Assembly: GCA_018057825.1 (NCBI GenBank) | Contig: JAGPCY010000056.1 | Span: 1-42,604, forward strand | Origin: Kofleriaceae bacterium | Lineage (GTDB): Bacteria; Myxococcota_A; Polyangia; Haliangiales; Haliangiaceae | Reading direction: 5' to 3' | DNA length: 42,604 nucleotides | Shown: one piece after another, positions 978-42,480 of the stretch | How the letters are laid out: each line of letters opens with the position of its first letter | Position numbering within the stretch: position 1 is the first letter of the stretch | The notes under the pieces: generated by a model | The model's input: only the letters and a program-made list of their open reading frames with translations | What the model was told of the DNA's origin: nothing | Databases searched by the model: none | Translations under genes and position numbers: made by a program

Positions 978-1075
978 GCGCTGAATCACCCAGCCGACCG
1001 GAGGGAGGCGTCTTGGGTGGGGGACCCGCCGGGGGCGTGACCCCGGCGGGGGAGGGTTTGGTGACAAACCCTCCC
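978..1075. repeat. Dispersed structured element, left copy (35-nt block plus two hairpins)
   Basis: A 35-nt block at 978-1012, beginning GCGCTGAATCACCC, recurs with one mismatch at 42332-42366. It is followed by hairpin 1 (arms 1025-1034 and 1041-1050, 10 bp, 6-nt loop) and hairpin 2 (arms 1050-1060 and 1065-1075, up to 11 bp). Hairpin 2 is capped by GTGA, which read as RNA on the plus strand is a GNRA tetraloop. The right copy has different stem sequences that still pair. The element ends 7 nt before the typA stop, so it could also act as the 3' end of typA on the minus strand. The working strand is unknown. Confidence 0.75.
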
Positions 1076-1082
1076 AAAGAAC

Positions 1083-2927
<1,845 letters not shown>

Positions 2928-2929
2928 GG

Positions 2930-3496
2930 CTAGCTCGCGGGCGAAGGAGAGGTGGCGACCAGGCGTGGACACGCCACGACGGCGCGACCGAGCGGAGGGA
3001 CAGCGGAGGGCGCGATCAGCGCGGCGGCCAGGGCCGGATCGCGGGTGCCGGTCACGGTGCCGGCGGCGCCGTCGGCGGCGCGGTAGGTGAACGCGGCGGC
3101 GCCCAGATCGACGACCGAGAGGGTCGCGATCGGCGAGCGATCCGCGCCCACCACGGCGGCGGAGTCATCGGACGTGCTGATCCGGGCCAGGGGCACGCCG
3201 ATGGGATCGAGGTAGATCCGCACCGGTGGCGGCCCGGGCTCGTCGACGATCCGGGCGACCAGGGCCTCGGCGTTGGTCAAGGCCAGGCCGGTCGGGCCAG
3301 GCGCCAGGCGCCAGGTCCCGCCGCGGGCCTCGGCGCCGGCGACGGTGATCGTGGTCCCCGCCGCGGCGCAGCCGCCGGCGGTGCGGGTCAGGATCAGCTC
3401 GCCGTCGGGGACCTGGGCGGTCACCGCGATCGCCTGCGGCGCCGGCGCGGTCTGACAACCGGCGGCGAGGGCGAAGGCGAGGTGGCGGCGGGCCAT
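2930..3496 (-). CDS. Putative lipoprotein of unknown function
   Basis: This 188-residue protein has a short basic start (MARRH), a hydrophobic run and Ala-Ala-Gly-Cys with Cys14 as the probable lipidation site. The lipobox is weaker than usual because the Leu sits one place further away. The mature part reads like a beta-rich extracytoplasmic domain: alternating hydrophobic strands, Gly/Thr turns and a conserved-looking [13 protein letters not shown] segment. No family is recognised. It starts at ATG 3496, with a TACATG box ending 8 nt upstream, and stops 2 nt before typA. It faces a second lipoprotein gene at 3576 across an 80-nt divergent region. A link to TypA function is not implied by anything in the sequence. 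Confidence 0.75.
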
Positions 3497-3575
3497 GGCG
3501 CGCGCATGTAGCACGTTTGCTCGGGCCGCGGGGATCTCGCGCCGGTGGCCGCGCCGTGGTACTTCCGCTCGACCT

Positions 3576-5114
3576 ATGCGCGGGTTCGCTCGCTCGGCTG
3601 TCGGCGCGGTGGCGCTGGCGTGGGCGCTGGCCGGCTGTGGCTCGTCGGAGCGCGCCCGTCCGCCGGCGGCCGCACCCGCCGATGCTGGGCCGGCGCCGGC
3701 GGTGCGGGTCGAGGTGCCGGCCCTGGGCACCGACCGCCTCGATGGCTGGGGCTGGCGGCGCGGTCCGGGGGCGGCGGCCTTCGGTCGCGCCCTGGCGGCG
3801 GAGCGCGCCGGGGACCTGCCGACCCTCGAGCGCGAGGCCACCGCCGCCTTGGCCGCGGATCCTGGCCACCTCGAGGCGGCCTGGCTGGCCGCGGTGGCGC
3901 GGGCCCGGCTCGGGCGGCTCGACGAGGTGCTGGCGCCGCTGCAGGTCGCGGCGGCCGGCGACTGGGGCAAGTGGGGCGAGCGCTCCCTCGAGCTGGCGGC
4001 CCTCGAGGCCTTTCGCGCCAGCGCGGCGGGGCGCGGCTGGGTCGAGGCCGCCGGGCGCCATCGCGACGCCTACCAAGAGGCCCTGCGCCGCGCCGTGGTC
4101 GTGCTCGGCGCTCGGGTCGGCGAGCGCGGCGCGGTCGGCCGCGAGCTGTACGCGGTCGACGTCGAGGCCGGCCGCTGGCTGCGCCTGACCCGCACCGGCG
4201 GTGCGGTGGCGGGCGCGATCGCGGCTGCCGGCGCGCCGTGGATCGCCTACGCCACGGTGCGCAAGGGCGCGCGCGGCGGCCGGGTCGACGTGCGGATCGC
4301 GGTCGTCGATCGGACGACCGGCCGGGCCGGCCGCGAGGTCGCCTTCGACGACGTCGCCGCGGTCACGCTGGCGTGGCGTCCTCACGATGGCGAGGTCGCG
4401 CTGCACGCGGCGGTGGTCCATCGCGCCGGCAAGGGGCGGGGCGCGGTGGTCGACTGGCGCCGCGGCGCGATCGCACCGGTGGCCGCGCCGCGTCCGTTGC
4501 GCGGCGAGCGGCTCGAGATCGCCGCCGATGGGGTGGCCCTGCGGCGCCTGCCGATCGCGCGGGTCAGCGCCGACTGGGACGACGCCACCGCCAGCGCGGT
4601 GCGCTTCGATCGCAGCGGCAAGGTGGTCGCGGCGCCCGCCGGGGGGCTGATCGACGGCGACAGCCTGGCGCTCGATCCGGGCGGCGCTCGCGCCGCCTTC
4701 GTCACCGCTCCCGAGCCGCCGTGTGAGCCGACCACGCCGCGGGCCGCCTACGCCGTCGAGGTGACCAGCGGTCGGCTGCGGCCGCTGGCCCGCGGCGCGG
4801 TCGCCGGGCCGGTCTGGCTCGACGACGAGCGGGTCGCGGTCACGGTCGGCGATCAGGTCGAGGTGATCTCCGCCGCGAGCGGCGCGTCGCTGGCGACCCT
4901 AGCCGGTGGCGCCGGGGTCGCGACCTTGACGGCTGGGCCGCGCCGATCGTGCGCCGCGCCGCCGCCGCCCTTCGTGGAGCCCGACGAGATCGAGCCCGAC
5001 GAGATCGATGCCGACCGCGTCGAGCCGGCGCCGACGTCGGTGACCGGCGACGCCGCGGTCGACGCCAGCGCGTCGCCCGGCGGAGACCCGGACGCAGGCG
5101 TCGGCGCGCCGTGA
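3576..5114 (+). CDS. Lipoprotein with TPR-like and beta-propeller-like regions
   Basis: The 512-residue protein has a clear lipoprotein signal ending Ala-Leu-Ala-Gly-Cys, with Cys21. Residues from about 60 to 160 are Ala/Leu-rich helices resembling TPR hairpins (for example AALAADPGHLEAAWLAAVAR). From about residue 185 on, repeated short strands (AVDVEAGRWLRLTR, GDQVEVISAASG and similar) suggest a WD40/TolB-like propeller reading out variable-value pairs. The tail is acidic and Pro-rich, with a repeated Glu-Pro-Asp-Glu-Ile. ATG 3576 was chosen because the signal peptide begins there; upstream in-frame codons belong to the divergent promoter region. It precedes rnpB by about 40 nt. The cargo or partner is unknown. 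Confidence 0.8.
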   Translation: MRGFARSAVGAVALAWALAGCGSSERARPPAAAPADAGPAPAVRVEVPALGTDRLDGWGWRRGPGAAAFGRALAAERAGDLPTLEREATAALAADPGHLEAAWLAAVARARLGRLDEVLAPLQVAAAGDWGKWGERSLELAALEAFRASAAGRGWVEAAGRHRDAYQEALRRAVVVLGARVGERGAVGRELYAVDVEAGRWLRLTRTGGAVAGAIAAAGAPWIAYATVRKGARGGRVDVRIAVVDRTTGRAGREVAFDDVAAVTLAWRPHDGEVALHAAVVHRAGKGRGAVVDWRRGAIAPVAAPRPLRGERLEIAADGVALRRLPIARVSADWDDATASAVRFDRSGKVVAAPAGGLIDGDSLALDPGGARAAFVTAPEPPCEPTTPRAAYAVEVTSGRLRPLARGAVAGPVWLDDERVAVTVGDQVEVISAASGASLATLAGGAGVATLTAGPRRSCAAPPPPFVEPDEIEPDEIDADRVEPAPTSVTGDAAVDASASPGGDPDAGVGAP

Positions 5115-5155: not shown

Positions 5156-5535
<380 letters not shown>

Positions 5536-5668: not shown

Positions 5669-6223
5669 ATGCGCGCCCTCTCTGCCCTCGTCCTCGCCCT
5701 CGCCCTCGTCGCGCCTGCCACGGCTCGGGCCGAACGGTTCGCCGTCGGCGTCGCCCTCGGCACCACCCACGCGGAGACCGACGCCGACGCCGGGTTGAAC
5801 GCCAGCTCGACCAGCGGGCTGTGGCTGCGCTATCGACTGGTTCCGCGCTTGGCCGCCGAGATCAGCTATGGCCGGATCGCCACCGATGGCGACGCCACGA
5901 TCATCCGCTCGCTCACGGTGGCGGCGCGCTTCGCCCCCACCGCCTGGCGCGGCGGAACGCTGCGCCCCATCGTGCTGGTCGGCCTCGGCCCCGACACCAC
6001 CGACGACGCGCGCTCGTTCTTCCGCGCCGAGGTCGGCGCGGGCCTCGAGCTCGACCTCGGCGGCCAGTTCGTGATCGGCGCGGACCTGCGCCTGGGCGAG
6101 CGCGAACTCGCGGCGACCGAGGCCCAGCCCGGCATCGACGATCGTCCCAACGCTCGCATCGCCGCCGATCTGACCGAGGGTGGCTACCGCAGCACCCAGG
6201 CCTACCTGGGCGTCCGGTTCTAG
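5669..6223 (+). CDS. Outer-membrane beta-barrel protein (OmpA/OmpW-like porin fold)
   Basis: The 184-residue precursor has a classic Sec signal (MRALSALVLALALVAPATARA) with cleavage before Glu22. The mature chain alternates hydrophobic and polar residues in about eight amphipathic strands, such as LWLRYRLVPRLAAEISYGRI and LTVAARFAPTAW. It ends in Phe (YLGVRF), the usual BAM-recognition C-terminus. The size fits an eight-stranded barrel. ATG 5669 was chosen because the signal starts there and GAGG lies at 5662-5665 just upstream. It stands alone downstream of rnpB and is followed 3 nt later by a CTC hexamer array. Substrate unknown. Confidence 0.82.
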   Translation: MRALSALVLALALVAPATARAERFAVGVALGTTHAETDADAGLNASSTSGLWLRYRLVPRLAAEISYGRIATDGDATIIRSLTVAARFAPTAWRGGTLRPIVLVGLGPDTTDDARSFFRAEVGAGLELDLGGQFVIGADLRLGERELAATEAQPGIDDRPNARIAADLTEGGYRSTQAYLGVRF

Positions 6224-13893: not shown

Positions 13894-15186
13894 ATGGACG
13901 CCGCGCTCTTGACCGAGGCCGGGTACGCGATCGGCCTGGGGTTGATCGTCGGCCTCGAGCGCGAGCACAGCGAGGTCGCGTCGGGGCTGGCCGACGGCGC
14001 CATCCCCGAGCAGACGGGGCGGGCGCCGCTCCAGCCCGCGGCCGGCGTCCGCACCCTGGGCCTGTTCGGCCTGGTCGGTTGGCTCCTGGCGTACCTCGGC
14101 GGCTCCTGGCCGTGGCTCTTGCCGGTCGGCCTGCTCGCGGTGGCGGCCATGGTGTCGGTGCAGATCGCGGTGTCGCGGGACACCGGCATCACCACCGAGG
14201 TCGCGGCGCTCGTGGTCTTGCTCCTGGGCGCGGTCGTGCGCTTCGATCGCGGCCTGGCGGTGGCGCTGGCCTTGGCGACCACGGCGCTCCTGGTGTCCAA
14301 GGGCTGGGTCCGCGGCTTCGTCGTCAAGCTGCGTCGGGTCGAGCTGACCGCGACCCTCCAGCTCCTGATCCTCGTCGCGATCGTCTTGCCGCTGTTGCCG
14401 GTCGAGGCCCGCGATCCGTGGGGGGCGCTGCCGCCGCGCAAGGTCGGCACCTTCGTGGTGCTGATCGCCGCGGTGCAGTACGTCGGCTACGTCCTCACCC
14501 GCTGGCTGGGTGCGGCCCGCGGCGTCGGCCTGGCCGGGCTGGTCGGTGGCCTCACCAGCTCGACCGCCGTCACGGTGTCCATGGCCAAGGCGGCGAAGGA
14601 TGATCCAGGCATGGTCGGCCCGGGGCTCCTCGCGACCTTCCTCGCCAACCTGGTGATGCCGATCCGCGTCGTCGCGATCGCGTGGGCGATCGCGCCGGCG
14701 GTCGGGATGCGGGGGGCGCTGGCGCTGGGGCCGATGGTGGTGATCCTCCTGGTCGCCGCCGGGCTGGCCTTCGCCCGGGTCCGTCGCGAGCCGCCGGTGA
14801 CCGCGACCGCGATCGAGCTGAAGAACCCGTTCGCCTTGTGGGGGGCCCTGGCTTGGGGCGCGGTCTTGTGTGGCGTGCTCCTCGCGGCTCACCTGGCGAC
14901 CGCGTGGCTCGGCCAGCGCGGCCTCTACCTCGCGGCCGCGCTGTCGGGCATCACCGACGTCGACGCGATCACCCTGGCCGCCGCCGACCAGGCCCGGGGC
15001 GGGGTGGTGGATCCGGCGTGGGCCGCGCTGGCGATCGCGATCGCCGCCATCGCCAACACCATCGCCAAGGGCCTGATGGCGTACCTCGGCGGCGGCCGGG
15101 CCTTCGGCCGGCGGGTGGCCGGGGTGTTCGCGATCGCCGCCGCCGTGACCGCCGCCGCCGCCGGCGTCGGCGTCGCGATCGGCTAG
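13894..15186 (+). CDS. MgtC/SapB-like DUF4010 membrane protein
   Basis: The 430-residue protein begins with an MgtC/SapB-type segment ([13 protein letters not shown], then [19 protein letters not shown]) and continues into a DUF4010-type domain ([19 protein letters not shown] and [13 protein letters not shown]). It is almost wholly hydrophobic with roughly 11-13 helices. MgtC proteins modulate magnesium/phosphate homeostasis in other bacteria; for the DUF4010 form the transported or sensed species is not established. ATG 13894 is used; GTG 13891 is in frame immediately before it. CTC hexamer array 3 starts 4 nt after the stop, with the next gene in the same direction. Confidence 0.88.
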
Positions 15187-28643: not shown

Positions 28644-30155
28644 GTGCGCGCCTCACCGCTCGTCTCGCTGATCGTCGCCGCCGTCGCGCTCGCCGCGCCG
28701 GTCGCGGTCGCCGGTCCCGGCTTCGACCCCGACGCGATCTACGCGGTGCCGCTGGGCGACGCCCCGACCCGCGGGCCGGCCGACGCGCCGATCACGATCG
28801 TCGAGTTCTCCGACTTCGCGTGCGGCTACTGCAACCGGATGCAGCCGGTGTTGCGGCAGGTCGAGCGCCTGCACCCGGGGCTCATCCGGTGGGTCTACCG
28901 GCCGCTGCCCCTCGACGAGGATGACGGCACCCTGGCGTCGGAGGCGGCGATCGCGGCGGGCCTGCAGGGTCGCTTCTGGCCGATGCACGATCGGCTGTTC
29001 GCGGTCCGCGGCCGCGTCGATCGCGCCGCGGTCGAGCTTCTGGCGGTCGAGCTCGGCCTCGACCTCGTCCGGTTTCGCGACGACCTCGATCGCGGCGCGG
29101 CCCGGGCCGCGGTCGACGCCAACCTGGCCGCCGCCCGCGCCCTCGGCGTCGGTGGGACGCCGGCCTTCTTCGTCAACGGCCGCGCGCTGCCGGGCGCGGT
29201 GCCGCTGACCGCCCTGGTCGACGTGATCGCCGCTGAGCTGGCGCGGGCGCGCGAGGTGCCCGCGGGCCCCGACCGCTACGCCGCCCTGATCGGCGATGGT
29301 CGGCCGCGCGCCGATGTCGACGAGCCGCGCTATCCGCAACGCGAGCTGACCAGCGAGGAGCGCTACCGGGTCGGGCTCGGGCTGCCCGGCCATCGCCGCG
29401 GCCCCGACGATGCGGCGGTGACGATCGTGGTGTGGAGCGACTTCTTGTGCCCGTACTGCGTGCGCCAGGCCCCGGTGCTCGAGGCGCTGCGCGCGGCCCA
29501 CCCGACCCGGGTCCGGGTGGTCTACCGCCACTATCCGCTGGCGATCCATCCCGGCGCCGACGTCGCGGCCGAGGCCGCGGTCGAGGCCGGACGCCAGGGC
29601 AAGTTCTGGGCGTTCCACGACGAGCTGATGGCCGCGGCGGCGGGCGGGTTGCCGCGGTCGGTGCTCCTCGAGCGCGCCGCGCGGGTCGGTCTCGACGTCG
29701 GCGCGCTGACCGCGGCGCTCGCCGATCATCGCCACCGCGACGTGGTCCTGGCCGACGCCGCGGCCGCCGCCGCGCTGGGCGCCGGCGGGACGCCGACCGT
29801 GATCGTCAACGGCCTCGCGCTGCCCGGCATGGTCGAGGCCGACGAGCTCGAGGCGGTGGTCGCCGCCGAGCTGGCCCGCGCCGACGAGCTGGTCGCGCGC
29901 GGGGTGGCGCCGGCCGACGTCTACGCGATCATCGGCCTGGGCGCGGATCGCACGGAGCAGGGCGATCCGCGGGGGCTGGCGCGCGGCGCCGGGCTGCGGA
30001 TCGAGCCGGGCGCGATCGAGCGGACGAAGATGATCGAGGGCGCGTGTCGAGCCGGCGATCGCGCCGACGCCGCGGCGCTGGTCGGGCGCCTGCGCGGCGC
30101 CGAGGCCGCGGCGGCCCGCGCGTACTGCGCCGATCGCGGGATCGACCTGCCATGA
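28644..30155 (+). CDS. Secreted protein with two DsbA-like thioredoxin domains
   Basis: The 503-residue precursor has a signal peptide (VSLIVAAVALAAPVAVAG) and two complete DsbA_4/thioredoxin_4-type domains. Domain 1 has the redox pair CGYC at 60-63 and cis-Pro in GGTPAFFVNG. Domain 2 has CPYC at 269-272 and GGTPTVIVNG. Each contains the helical insert with conserved HD-x-L after FW (FWPMHDRLF, FWAFHDELM). Such proteins oxidise or isomerise disulfides in the periplasm; two active sites in one chain suggest internal disulfide relay. The C-terminal 70 residues are a helical extension with one Cys. The start is GTG 28644. The stop overlaps the next gene's ATG as ATGA, so it is coupled to a flavoprotein disulfide reductase. 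Confidence 0.9.
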   Translation: MRASPLVSLIVAAVALAAPVAVAGPGFDPDAIYAVPLGDAPTRGPADAPITIVEFSDFACGYCNRMQPVLRQVERLHPGLIRWVYRPLPLDEDDGTLASEAAIAAGLQGRFWPMHDRLFAVRGRVDRAAVELLAVELGLDLVRFRDDLDRGAARAAVDANLAAARALGVGGTPAFFVNGRALPGAVPLTALVDVIAAELARAREVPAGPDRYAALIGDGRPRADVDEPRYPQRELTSEERYRVGLGLPGHRRGPDDAAVTIVVWSDFLCPYCVRQAPVLEALRAAHPTRVRVVYRHYPLAIHPGADVAAEAAVEAGRQGKFWAFHDELMAAAAGGLPRSVLLERAARVGLDVGALTAALADHRHRDVVLADAAAAAALGAGGTPTVIVNGLALPGMVEADELEAVVAAELARADELVARGVAPADVYAIIGLGADRTEQGDPRGLARGAGLRIEPGAIERTKMIEGACRAGDRADAAALVGRLRGAEAAAARAYCADRGIDLP

Positions 30156-31513
30156 CCGCCCGCGAGTTCGACCTCGATCTCCTGGTCCTCGGCGGTGGCT
30201 CGGGCGGCGTGCGCGCCGCGCGGATCGCCGCCGGCCACGGCGCGCGGGTCGCGATCGTCGAGGAGTACCGCTGGGGCGGCACCTGCGTGATCCGCGGCTG
30301 CGTGCCCAAGAAGCTCATGGTCTACGCCGGCGAGCTGGGCCACGCCCTGGCCGACGCCGCCGGCTACGGCTGGCACGTCGGTCCGGTGCGCCACGACTGG
30401 GCGGCCCTGATCGCGGCCAAGGATCGCGAGATCGCCCGGCTGTCCGGGCTGTACCGCGCCAACCTCGAGCGCGCCGGGGTCGAGCTGATCGACGGCCGCG
30501 CCACCGTGCTCGATCCCCACACGGTCGCGATCGACGGCGCGCCGCGGCGCGCGCGCTACCTCCTGATCGCCACCGGCGGGCGGCCCAAGCGGCCGGCGAT
30601 CCCGGGCGGCGAGCTGATGATCACCTCCGACGAGGCCTTCCACCTGCCGACCCTGCCGGCGCGGATCGCGATCGTCGGCGGCGGCTACATCGGCGTCGAG
30701 TTCGCGCACATCTTCCGCGCGCTCGGGGCCGAGGTCACGCTGATCCATCGCGGCGCCCAGGTCCTGCCCGGGTTCGACGACGACCTGCGAGGCGCGGTCG
30801 AGGCCGGCCTGGCCGGGGCCGGGATCGCGCTGGCGCCCGGTCGCGAGCCGCGGGCGGTGGTGCGGACCGCGGACGGCGCGCTGACCGTGACCCTCGACGA
30901 CGGCCAGGCGATCGAGGTCGACCTGGCGATGGCCGCGGTCGGCCGGATCCCGGCGACCGCGGGGCTCGGCCTCGAGGACGTCGGGGTCGCCCTCGATCGC
31001 CGCGGCGCGATCGTCGTCGACCGATACAGCCAGAGTTCGGTGCCGTCGATCTACGCCGTCGGCGACGTCACCGGGCGCCAGGCCCTGACGCCGGTGGCGA
31101 TCCGCGAGGGTCACGCCTTCGCCGACACGGTCTTCGGCGGCACGCCGATCGCCGTCGATCACGCGCTGATCGCGACCGCGGTGTTCGCGCAGCCACCGGC
31201 CGCGGCGATCGGCCTGACCGAGGCGGCGGCCCGCGCCGCCGGGCACGCGGTCACGATCTTCCAGACCCGGTTTCGGCCGATGAAGCACACCCTGACCGGC
31301 CGCGACGAGCACGTGCTGCTCAAGCTGGTGGTCGACGCCGCCAGCGATCGGGTGCTCGGCGTGCACCTGGTGGGCGACGACGCCCCCGAGATCATCCAGG
31401 CCGCCGCGATCGCGGTGACCATGGGCGCGACCAAGGCCGACTTCGATCGCACCTTCGCGATCCACCCGACGGTCGCCGAGGAGCTGGTGCTCTTGCGAAC
31501 CCCGGTGCGCTGA
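30152..31513 (+). CDS. gor: Glutathione-disulfide reductase-like flavoprotein
   Basis: Class I pyridine nucleotide-disulfide oxidoreductase. The 453-residue protein has the FAD-binding GGGSGGVRAARIAA at 14-27 and the redox pair Cys45/Cys50 in GGTCVIRGCVPKK, the spacing of glutathione reductases. The NAD(P)-binding loop is GGGYIGVEFA near 174, followed by HRGAQVLPGFD, which keeps an Arg expected for NADPH use. YAVGDVTG is the second FAD motif, and the C-terminal catalytic HPTVAEEL includes the His-Glu pair. The substrate could be glutathione, trypanothione-like or a protein disulfide. It is translationally coupled to the secreted double-DsbA protein. It has no signal, so it acts in the cytoplasm. 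CTC array 4 follows. Confidence 0.88.
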   Translation: MTAREFDLDLLVLGGGSGGVRAARIAAGHGARVAIVEEYRWGGTCVIRGCVPKKLMVYAGELGHALADAAGYGWHVGPVRHDWAALIAAKDREIARLSGLYRANLERAGVELIDGRATVLDPHTVAIDGAPRRARYLLIATGGRPKRPAIPGGELMITSDEAFHLPTLPARIAIVGGGYIGVEFAHIFRALGAEVTLIHRGAQVLPGFDDDLRGAVEAGLAGAGIALAPGREPRAVVRTADGALTVTLDDGQAIEVDLAMAAVGRIPATAGLGLEDVGVALDRRGAIVVDRYSQSSVPSIYAVGDVTGRQALTPVAIREGHAFADTVFGGTPIAVDHALIATAVFAQPPAAAIGLTEAAARAAGHAVTIFQTRFRPMKHTLTGRDEHVLLKLVVDAASDRVLGVHLVGDDAPEIIQAAAIAVTMGATKADFDRTFAIHPTVAEELVLLRTPVR

Positions 31514-33977: not shown

Positions 33978-34670
33978 ATGCCCGTCGCCGATCCGTACCG
34001 CGACCTCGCCGTGATCGATCGCAACGCGCCGCGCACCAACCAGATCGTGGTGGCGGTGCTGGCGACCGTGGCCCTGGCCACCGGCGTGTGGCCGCTCCTG
34101 GCCGTGCTCGCGGCGCAGCTCGCGATCGCGGTGCGGTTCGGCCGGCGCTACTGCCTGCCGTGTCGGCTGTACTTCGACGTGATCCAGCCGCGCGTGGGCG
34201 AGGGGCCCCTCGAGGACGCCCGGGCGCCGCGGTTCGCCAACCAGATCGGCGCGGCGGTCTTGGCCGCCGCCAGCGCGGCCTTCGCCCTCGGGGCGCCAGC
34301 GATCGGCGCGATCCTCGGCTGGCTGGTGGTGGTTCTGGCGACGGTGGCCGCGACCACCGGGCTGTGCGTCGGCTGCGAGCTGTACAAGATCGCGGCGCGG
34401 CTGCGCGGTGTCCGCGGCGGCGCGATCGAGCGCGTCGATCTGGCCGGGCTGGGCGCGGCGCCGTCCGCCGGTGAGGTGGTGGTGATGTTCACCCACCCGC
34501 TGTGCGGCGCGTGTCAGGAGGTCGGCGCGGCCCTGGCGGCCGACGGGCGGCCGGTGGTGGCGATCGACGTGTCGCGGCGGCGCGATCTGGCCAAGAAGTA
34601 CGGCGTCGCGCTGGTGCCGCTCGCGGTGGCGGTGGACCCGCGCGGCGTCGTGACGGCGCGCTTGCACTGA
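33978..34670 (+). CDS. DUF4395-like membrane protein fused to a thioredoxin-like domain
   Basis: The 230-residue protein has four likely helices in the first 140 residues and the DUF4395 pattern: DRNAPRTNQ, ARAPRFANQIG and TGLCVGCELYK. Residues from about 160 on form a small thioredoxin/glutaredoxin-like domain with LCGAC. Three CxxC pairs are visible: Cys59/Cys62 (CLPC), Cys130/Cys133 (CVGC) and Cys176/Cys179 (CGAC). This suggests electron transfer across the membrane to a terminal thiol site, analogous in idea to DsbD or VKOR but a different family. ATG 33978 follows TACAGA by 6 nt. The stop TGA overlaps the first unit of array 5. Confidence 0.82.
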   Translation: MPVADPYRDLAVIDRNAPRTNQIVVAVLATVALATGVWPLLAVLAAQLAIAVRFGRRYCLPCRLYFDVIQPRVGEGPLEDARAPRFANQIGAAVLAAASAAFALGAPAIGAILGWLVVVLATVAATTGLCVGCELYKIAARLRGVRGGAIERVDLAGLGAAPSAGEVVVMFTHPLCGACQEVGAALAADGRPVVAIDVSRRRDLAKKYGVALVPLAVAVDPRGVVTARLH

Positions 34671-42156: not shown

Positions 42157-42161
42157 CCCTC

Positions 42162-42299
<138 letters not shown>

Positions 42300-42331
42300 G
42301 GTCGATCCCCGTCGGAGTCCACCACCAACCC

Positions 42332-42425
42332 GCGCTGAATCACCCGGCCGACCGGAGGGAGGCGTCCCGGGGGGAGGCTCGGCGGGGACCTGGCCCCGCC
42401 GAGGGGGGCTCGGTGACGAGCCCCC
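42332..42425. repeat. Dispersed structured element, right copy
   Basis: The 35-nt block at 42332-42366 differs from the left copy at one base. Hairpin 1 has arms 42378-42387 and 42394-42403 (10 bp, 6-nt loop), the same geometry as on the left with a different stem sequence. Hairpin 2 has arms 42404-42412 and 42417-42425 around GTGA. The inner triplet next to the closing G-C is CTC/GAG here and TTT/AAA on the left, so base pairing is kept while the sequence changes. Confidence 0.75.
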
Positions 42426-42480
42426 TGAAACACAGCGAGGCTCGGCGGGGACCTGGCCCCGCCGAGGGGGGCTCGGTGAC
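42374..42480. repeat. 44-nt tandem duplication of the hairpin part
   Basis: Bases 42374-42417 recur identically at 42437-42480, 63 nt apart. The second copy has all of hairpin 1 but only the 5' arm and loop of hairpin 2. It ends 4 nt before the opposing stop at 42485. Confidence 0.85.

Follow-up and report, generated by a model that had tools for sequence, protein, structure and literature searches.

The structured element that occurs twice in the window analysed here (the whole stretch of 42,604 nucleotides, which is one entire contig of the genome referred to as G000) is probably a REP-like dispersed DNA repeat, the template-side strand of which would fold as two stacked hairpins accompanied by a third strand. 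At the level of sequence, comparison establishes a family of such elements, their organisation in arrays, a strict position and orientation at the ends of genes, covariation in both stems and covariation of a purine linker in a mirror register. In the proposed structure the folding strand, which is here the plus strand of the window and the template for the adjacent gene, would carry in succession the third strand, hairpin 1 acting as a long folded loop, a purine arm and a pyrimidine arm, with the purine linker lying antiparallel in the major groove of the end-to-end hairpins, where it would supply the third strand of an intrastrand purine-motif triplex. Exposure of the strand during replication, transcription or transposition may allow such a triplex to form in cells, the folded single strand may be recognised by an enzyme as copies spread, and copies may then persist at gene 3' ends as harmless passengers or as a useful barrier to a polymerase or an exonuclease.

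The features of the window are listed in Table 1. As the initial annotation had observed, the 5' blocks of the two copies are identical except at one A/G position and are followed by hairpins of the same geometry, hairpin 1 retaining a 10-bp stem and a 6-nt loop with differing sequences and hairpin 2 retaining a G-GTGA-C cap, beside which TTT/AAA is found in one copy and CTC/GAG in the other. When treated as single-stranded DNA, the 72-nt hairpin regions fold with z-scores of about -4.5 to -5.2 relative to shuffled sequences. The evidence for compensation that these two copies provide by themselves is weak, whereas that provided by the family is not.

Table 1. Positions of the element copies and of the host gene in the window.
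Feature	Position (nt)	Strand	Description
Copy 1, 5' block	978-1012	+	Core GCCGACCGGAGGGAGGCGTC, about 36 exact occurrences in the genome
Copy 1, proposed third strand GGGTGGGGG	1015-1023	+	Mirrors purine strand GGGGGAGGG; T opposite the sole A
Copy 1, hairpin 1	1025-1050	+	10 bp; stem CCCGCCGGGG; 6-nt loop GCGTGA; from folding and covariation
Copy 1, continuous purine strand	1048-1056	+	Last 3 nt of hairpin 1 and first 6 nt of hairpin 2; proposed target of the third strand
Copy 1, hairpin 2	1051-1074	+	10 bp; loop GTGA; directly stacked on hairpin 1; from folding and covariation
typA, host gene	1083-2927	-	TypA/BipA-type GTPase, named from sequence; stop codon 1083-1085
Copy 2, 5' block	42332-42366	+	From sequence comparison with copy 1
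Copy 2, proposed third strand GGGGGGAG	42369-42376	+	Mirrors GAGGGGGG (42401-42408)
Copy 2, hairpin 1	42378-42403	+	10 bp; stem CTCGGCGGGG; 6-nt loop ACCTGG
Copy 2, hairpin 2	42404-42425	+	9 bp; loop GTGA
Further copy, truncated, after copy 2	42437-42480	+	Hairpin 1 and hairpin 2 as far as its loop

The element had been described as present in two copies, but it belongs to a family of more than 100 that are organised in arrays. A covariance model (R1) recovered at least 137 matches in G000 and at least 116 in a congener, G003, these counts being lower bounds, and none or one in each of five other congeners; copies within one genome are related to each other. Exact occurrences of the 20-nt core of the 5' block in G000 often form tandem arrays with a spacing of roughly 80-100 nt. 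In an exact-pattern scan with the G000 block, no match was obtained in genome_contigs; a pattern scan of viral_contigs returned two matches. The absence of a recognisable RNA family, which had also been noted, is consistent with an Rfam covariance-model search of the window in which the element stayed below the gathering cut-off of every family and only RNase P was detected. The latter, at positions 5163-5532, scores 286.8 bits with RF00010 (RNase P RNA, bacterial class A).

The proposal of a selected fold with compensatory changes is supported by this larger sample, and further copies with unpaired stems did not turn up. Stem cells are paired in 99.7% of cases in a 21-copy alignment, compared with approximately 46-61% after the partner strand has been shifted along, and 38 diverse copies from G000 and G003 retain pairing in 98.5% of stem cells, with two-sided change at 12 of the 20 pairs. 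Compensation in the stems of the family is therefore real, and the same 38-copy alignment contains 117 cells with two-sided change against about nine G-T cells among 749, so that G-T intermediates are unusually scarce for an RNA. On the other hand, two details of the initial annotation do not extend to the family: the GTGA cap is not fixed (82 GTGA and 22 GCGA in G000, mainly GCGA but also TCGA in G003), and the suggested TCACC/GGTGA pseudoknot lacks generality, as an upstream 5-nt complement of the cap exists in just 27 of 143 copies.

A covariation scan of 88 non-redundant copies, evaluated against a tree-based null of 300 simulations, recovered the stem pairs and, in addition, unexpected pairs between the linker and the purine strand. 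The purine linker that precedes hairpin 1 mirrors, in one fixed register, the purine strand spanning the junction of hairpins 1 and 2, and summed covariation reaches 249 in this mirror register (i+j=87), compared with no more than 38 in other mirror registers, at most 79 in direct registers and 89 in a Watson-Crick register with the 3' arm of hairpin 2; the column pairs 25-62 and 30-57 (E of 0.04 and 0.01, respectively) are the only third-strand pairs that fall singly below 0.05. We know of no copying process that yields repeats in reverse order without complementing them, and a mirror register is of no use to Watson-Crick pairing. Linker and purine strand exist as several distinct types (GGAGGGGAG/GGAGGGGAG, GGAGAGGAG/GGAGAGGAG, GGAGAGGGG/GGAGAGGGG, GGGTGGGGG/GGGAGGGGG and GGAAGGGGG/GGAAGGGGG), and their lengths covary, shorter linkers being found with shorter arms. 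In the mirror code a G of the purine strand is faced by G and an A by A or T, occasionally by C (opposite A, over distinct types, A 29, T 6, C 4 and G 1), and 105 of 121 parsed copies fit a code of G:G and A/T:A perfectly; the linker has been lost through truncation in at least seven G000 copies.

As read from these alignments, the linker code is that of the antiparallel purine-motif triplex, A(T)*AT and G*GC (PMC4666352). A T opposite A is permitted by the purine motif on the folding strand only and not by the pyrimidine version on its complement. A single nucleotide separates the third strand from hairpin 1, which is tight if three pairs of hairpin 1 are covered. Two other explanations of the linker were considered and rejected: as an alternative Watson-Crick partner of the 3' arm of hairpin 2 it shows lower covariation, a shifting register and T opposite T, and a direct repeat on either side of hairpin 1 accounts for no more than some of the types.

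Elements built in this way but differing in sequence were detected in further genera and families of the class by a general model (R2); as the model scores linker positions independently, it does not favour mirrored pairs. The linker/purine-strand pairs found there include TGGGGGGAG/AGGGGGGAG (G031, G034 and G035), AAGGGGAG/AAGGGGAG (G011), AAAGGGAG/AAAGGGAG (G025), TGGGGTGA/AGGGGAGA (G002) and GGGTGGGAG/GGGAGGGAG (G005), together with linkers GGTTGGGGG and GGATGGGGG facing the purine strand GGAAGGGGG (G039) and linker GGGAGGGGG or GGGTGGGGG facing GGGAGGGGG (G193 and G169). Among 15 types from several genera, all in the same register, the match with the own partner is perfect in 11, compared with 11 of 210 cross pairs, and two further families are consistent with the mirror code. 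When genome_contigs was scanned with a pattern that allowed any base opposite A, 35 loci were obtained in six MAGs titled Myxococcales or Deltaproteobacteria, and in the 34 that could be parsed this base is T in 22, A in three, G in eight and C in one, all eight copies with G coming from a single MAG, JAHFDU. The bias towards gene ends is weaker in these other families, with 38 neighbouring genes on the opposite strand and 15 on the same strand, and distances are wide.

The initial annotation had put an RNA fold first and named single-stranded DNA as its alternative; RNA as the favoured molecule is not supported, and DNA appears to be the better half of that guess, given that G-U intermediates, which would be expected of an RNA, are nearly absent. 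Purine-motif triplexes have been reported in DNA and not in RNA (PMC4666352), and because of this, together with the scarcity of G-T pairs, exposed DNA of the adjacent gene's template strand is the most likely molecule to adopt the fold. The sequence comparisons point to selection on a fold of which the third strand is a part.

The position of the element relative to genes is strict. In 82 of 88 arrays (p 4e-18; 49 of 53 in G000 and 33 of 35 in G003) the gene next to the element's 3' end lies on the opposite strand, whereas the 5' neighbour shows no orientation preference, about half lying each way. The distance from that gene's stop codon or tRNA end to hairpin 2 is no more than 15 nt in 64 of 86 arrays, and random positions within the same gaps would give about eight such cases. 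Hairpin 2 mostly starts 1-10 nt past the stop codon, the commonest distance being about 5-7 nt; several arrays stand farther away, with the gap filled by partial copies. Gene calls were made with a codon-usage gene finder written for the analysis, and those in the window were checked by eye. In the window, hairpin 2 of copy 1 lies 8 nt behind the typA stop codon, and the typA orthologue of the sister species G003 also has an element directly behind it, with quite different hairpin sequences and with the flanking block that is G003's own; three other congeners have no such element behind typA. Three G003 copies follow tRNA genes (tRNA-Asn, tRNA-Gly and tRNA-Gln; L172 and L175), so that placement at gene ends is not confined to stop codons. 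No functional theme was apparent among the host genes, which encode, among others, a macro domain protein, a FadB-like protein, Lon, sigma-70, ProRS, P-II, DHO dehydrogenase, Usp and tRNAs, besides typA.

Other repeats were encountered in these intergenic regions. A second family (GATCTGGTGATGACTCCGGAGGTGG...), unrelated in sequence to the hairpin element, forms a tandem array a short distance past a stop codon in G000 (L242) and occurs once in the window at 690-760, and a third tandem repeat (CGTTTATTTCGGAACCCGGTGCGTGG...) begins directly after a stop codon in another G000 locus (L246), the G003 orthologue of which has the hairpin element at that place. Furthermore, many of the gaps between G000 genes are occupied by long tracts of hexamer type (GGTCTC/GGCCTC, CACCTC), and in the window such tracts are seen at 590-690 and 42160-42305 as well as downstream of the genes at 5669-6223, 13894-15186, 30152-31513 and 33978-34670.

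Placement behind genes is also what would be expected of a 3'-UTR RNA element, whose transcript would carry hairpin 2 and then hairpin 1 just past the stop codon and which could protect 3' ends, halt ribosomes as E. coli REPs do or mark the end left after Rho termination, the mirror relation being secondary. The start of hairpin 2 mostly 1-10 nt past the stop codon, the strict orientation relative to the gene, the three copies behind tRNA genes and the precedent of REPs, for which ribosome halting within 15 nt of stop codons has been described in E. coli (PMC12306157), all speak for such a role. Nevertheless, G-U intermediates are almost absent, the mirror-register covariation and T opposite A are not explained by RNA hairpins and point to the other strand, and the arrays L120 and L137 lie between apparently co-transcribed genes. 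A plain 3'-UTR hairpin role is thus the main rival of the DNA triplex and could coexist with it, although we regard it as unlikely to be the correct explanation.

A repeated transcription terminator used throughout the genome is more doubtful still. The position behind protein and tRNA genes and the strong GC hairpins agree with this view, and a C-rich stretch after hairpin 1 on the gene-sense strand could serve Rho; however, neither strand has a T run after the stem, the T-rich stretch instead preceding hairpin 2, elements are present inside apparent operons, and PIT elements tested in E. coli were devoid of terminator activity (PMC4666352).

With respect to the history of the family, empty orthologous sites together with near-identical copies indicate, on sequence grounds, that the element has spread. 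Clean empty orthologous sites were identified for four loci (L120/L245, L137/L244, L163/L247 and L192/L243), and comparison of occupied sites with their empty orthologues places the element straight after the native stop codon with the coding end unchanged; in L120 and L137 it parts genes that are spaced 17 and about 40 nt in G003. The insertion is visible in these empty-site comparisons, without a clear target duplication, and no mobilising enzyme was found. Y1 transposase genes (PF01797) number zero in G000, a draft assembly of 84 contigs, and are present in all six congeners searched, with 17 in G003. Mobilisation of the RAYT/IS200 type was rejected as a candidate, as G000 is without Y1_Tnp and no element was seen in the Y1 loci examined, three of them from G003. 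In one G000 locus (L158) two opposite-facing arrays flank a single gene (approximately 3402-4487 of the locus), which is a possible site of a mobilising enzyme.

Dispersal, arrays, empty orthologous sites and near-identical copies would also suit a miniature insertion sequence (MITE), in which the hairpins are merely recognition sites of a transposase and there is no third strand. This explanation is very unlikely, as no terminal inverted repeats or clear target duplications common to the copies were seen, G000 is without a Y1 transposase, and a mirror code common to unrelated sequence families is left unexplained. Finally, purine-rich low complexity might by itself produce the mirror relation, as the G-rich linkers and arms match trivially at many positions. 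This view is strongly disfavoured, since linkers agree far better with their own partners than in cross pairs or in direct or Watson-Crick registers, and the lengths of linker and purine strand covary.

Among known systems, the DNA triplex reading brings the element nearest in structure to the PIT/BoxC/TM_ECO repeats and nearest in genomic behaviour to REP. With BoxC, PIT and TM_ECO it would share reverse-Hoogsteen, purine and pyrimidine blocks on one strand, the code G*GC, A*AT and T*AT and dispersal as intergenic repeats, and TM_ECO (GGGTGAGGG) likewise has a conserved T opposite A (PMC4666352). The order of blocks in the element is that of class I (third strand, purine, pyrimidine), whereas TM_ECO belongs to class II, measures about 37 nt, has small loops and shows no bias in orientation or distance to genes (PMC4666352); unlike TM_ECO, the stems and third strand of the element vary with compensation, and its copies stand behind genes in one orientation. 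Moreover, loop 1 of the element comprises 24 nt folded as hairpin 1, in contrast to the 1-6 nt of the ITxF definition (PMC4666352).

Similarly, REP and BIME sequences are many-copy extragenic palindromes with compensatory changes and arrays, often within 15 nt of stop codons (PMC12306157), but the element has two stacked hairpins and a third strand, its genome G000 is without a Y1/RAYT gene, and its placement at stop codons and its orientation are far stricter. The REP-type tetranucleotide GTAG is absent 5' of either hairpin, and some G003 copies have it on the 3' side of hairpin 2. The polypurine mirror recalls H-DNA mirror repeats, and duplex DNA could give rise to the same triplets; the T-for-A exchanges, however, break the strict mirror symmetry of the element, and a pyrimidine arm on the same strand is a further pairing partner of its purine arm. 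Intrinsic terminators resemble the element in having GC-rich hairpins right after genes and differ from it in the U-tract, which the element lacks, and in its two stacked hairpins and family-specific block. The best reading is a hairpin-looped variant of the intrastrand triplex (PIT/BoxC) repeats that is a member of neither TM_ECO nor REP, and no description of hairpin-looped intrastrand triplex repeats was found in the open-access literature searched.

Taken together, these comparisons make it somewhat more probable than its opposite that an intrastrand purine-motif DNA triplex is under selective maintenance in living bacteria, in the form of dispersed, sequence-unrelated elements of this class (Myxococcota-type) that all have the order third strand-hairpin-hairpin and a code with A or T opposite A, and that in some species would be positioned, almost to the codon, on the template strand behind genes. 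No sign of selection on bacterial intrastrand triplex folds was seen in the open-access literature searched. Tests of the E. coli elements revealed no terminator or promoter effect and a triplex that is minor or transient in cells (PMC4666352), and such tests of PIT/BoxC triplexes leave the importance of the triplex itself open. If the present reading is true, the covariation of third strand and duplex in unrelated families, in which A gives way to T only at positions facing A:T, would constitute evolutionary evidence that the triplex matters, and the placement at gene ends would offer a defined place for testing its function.
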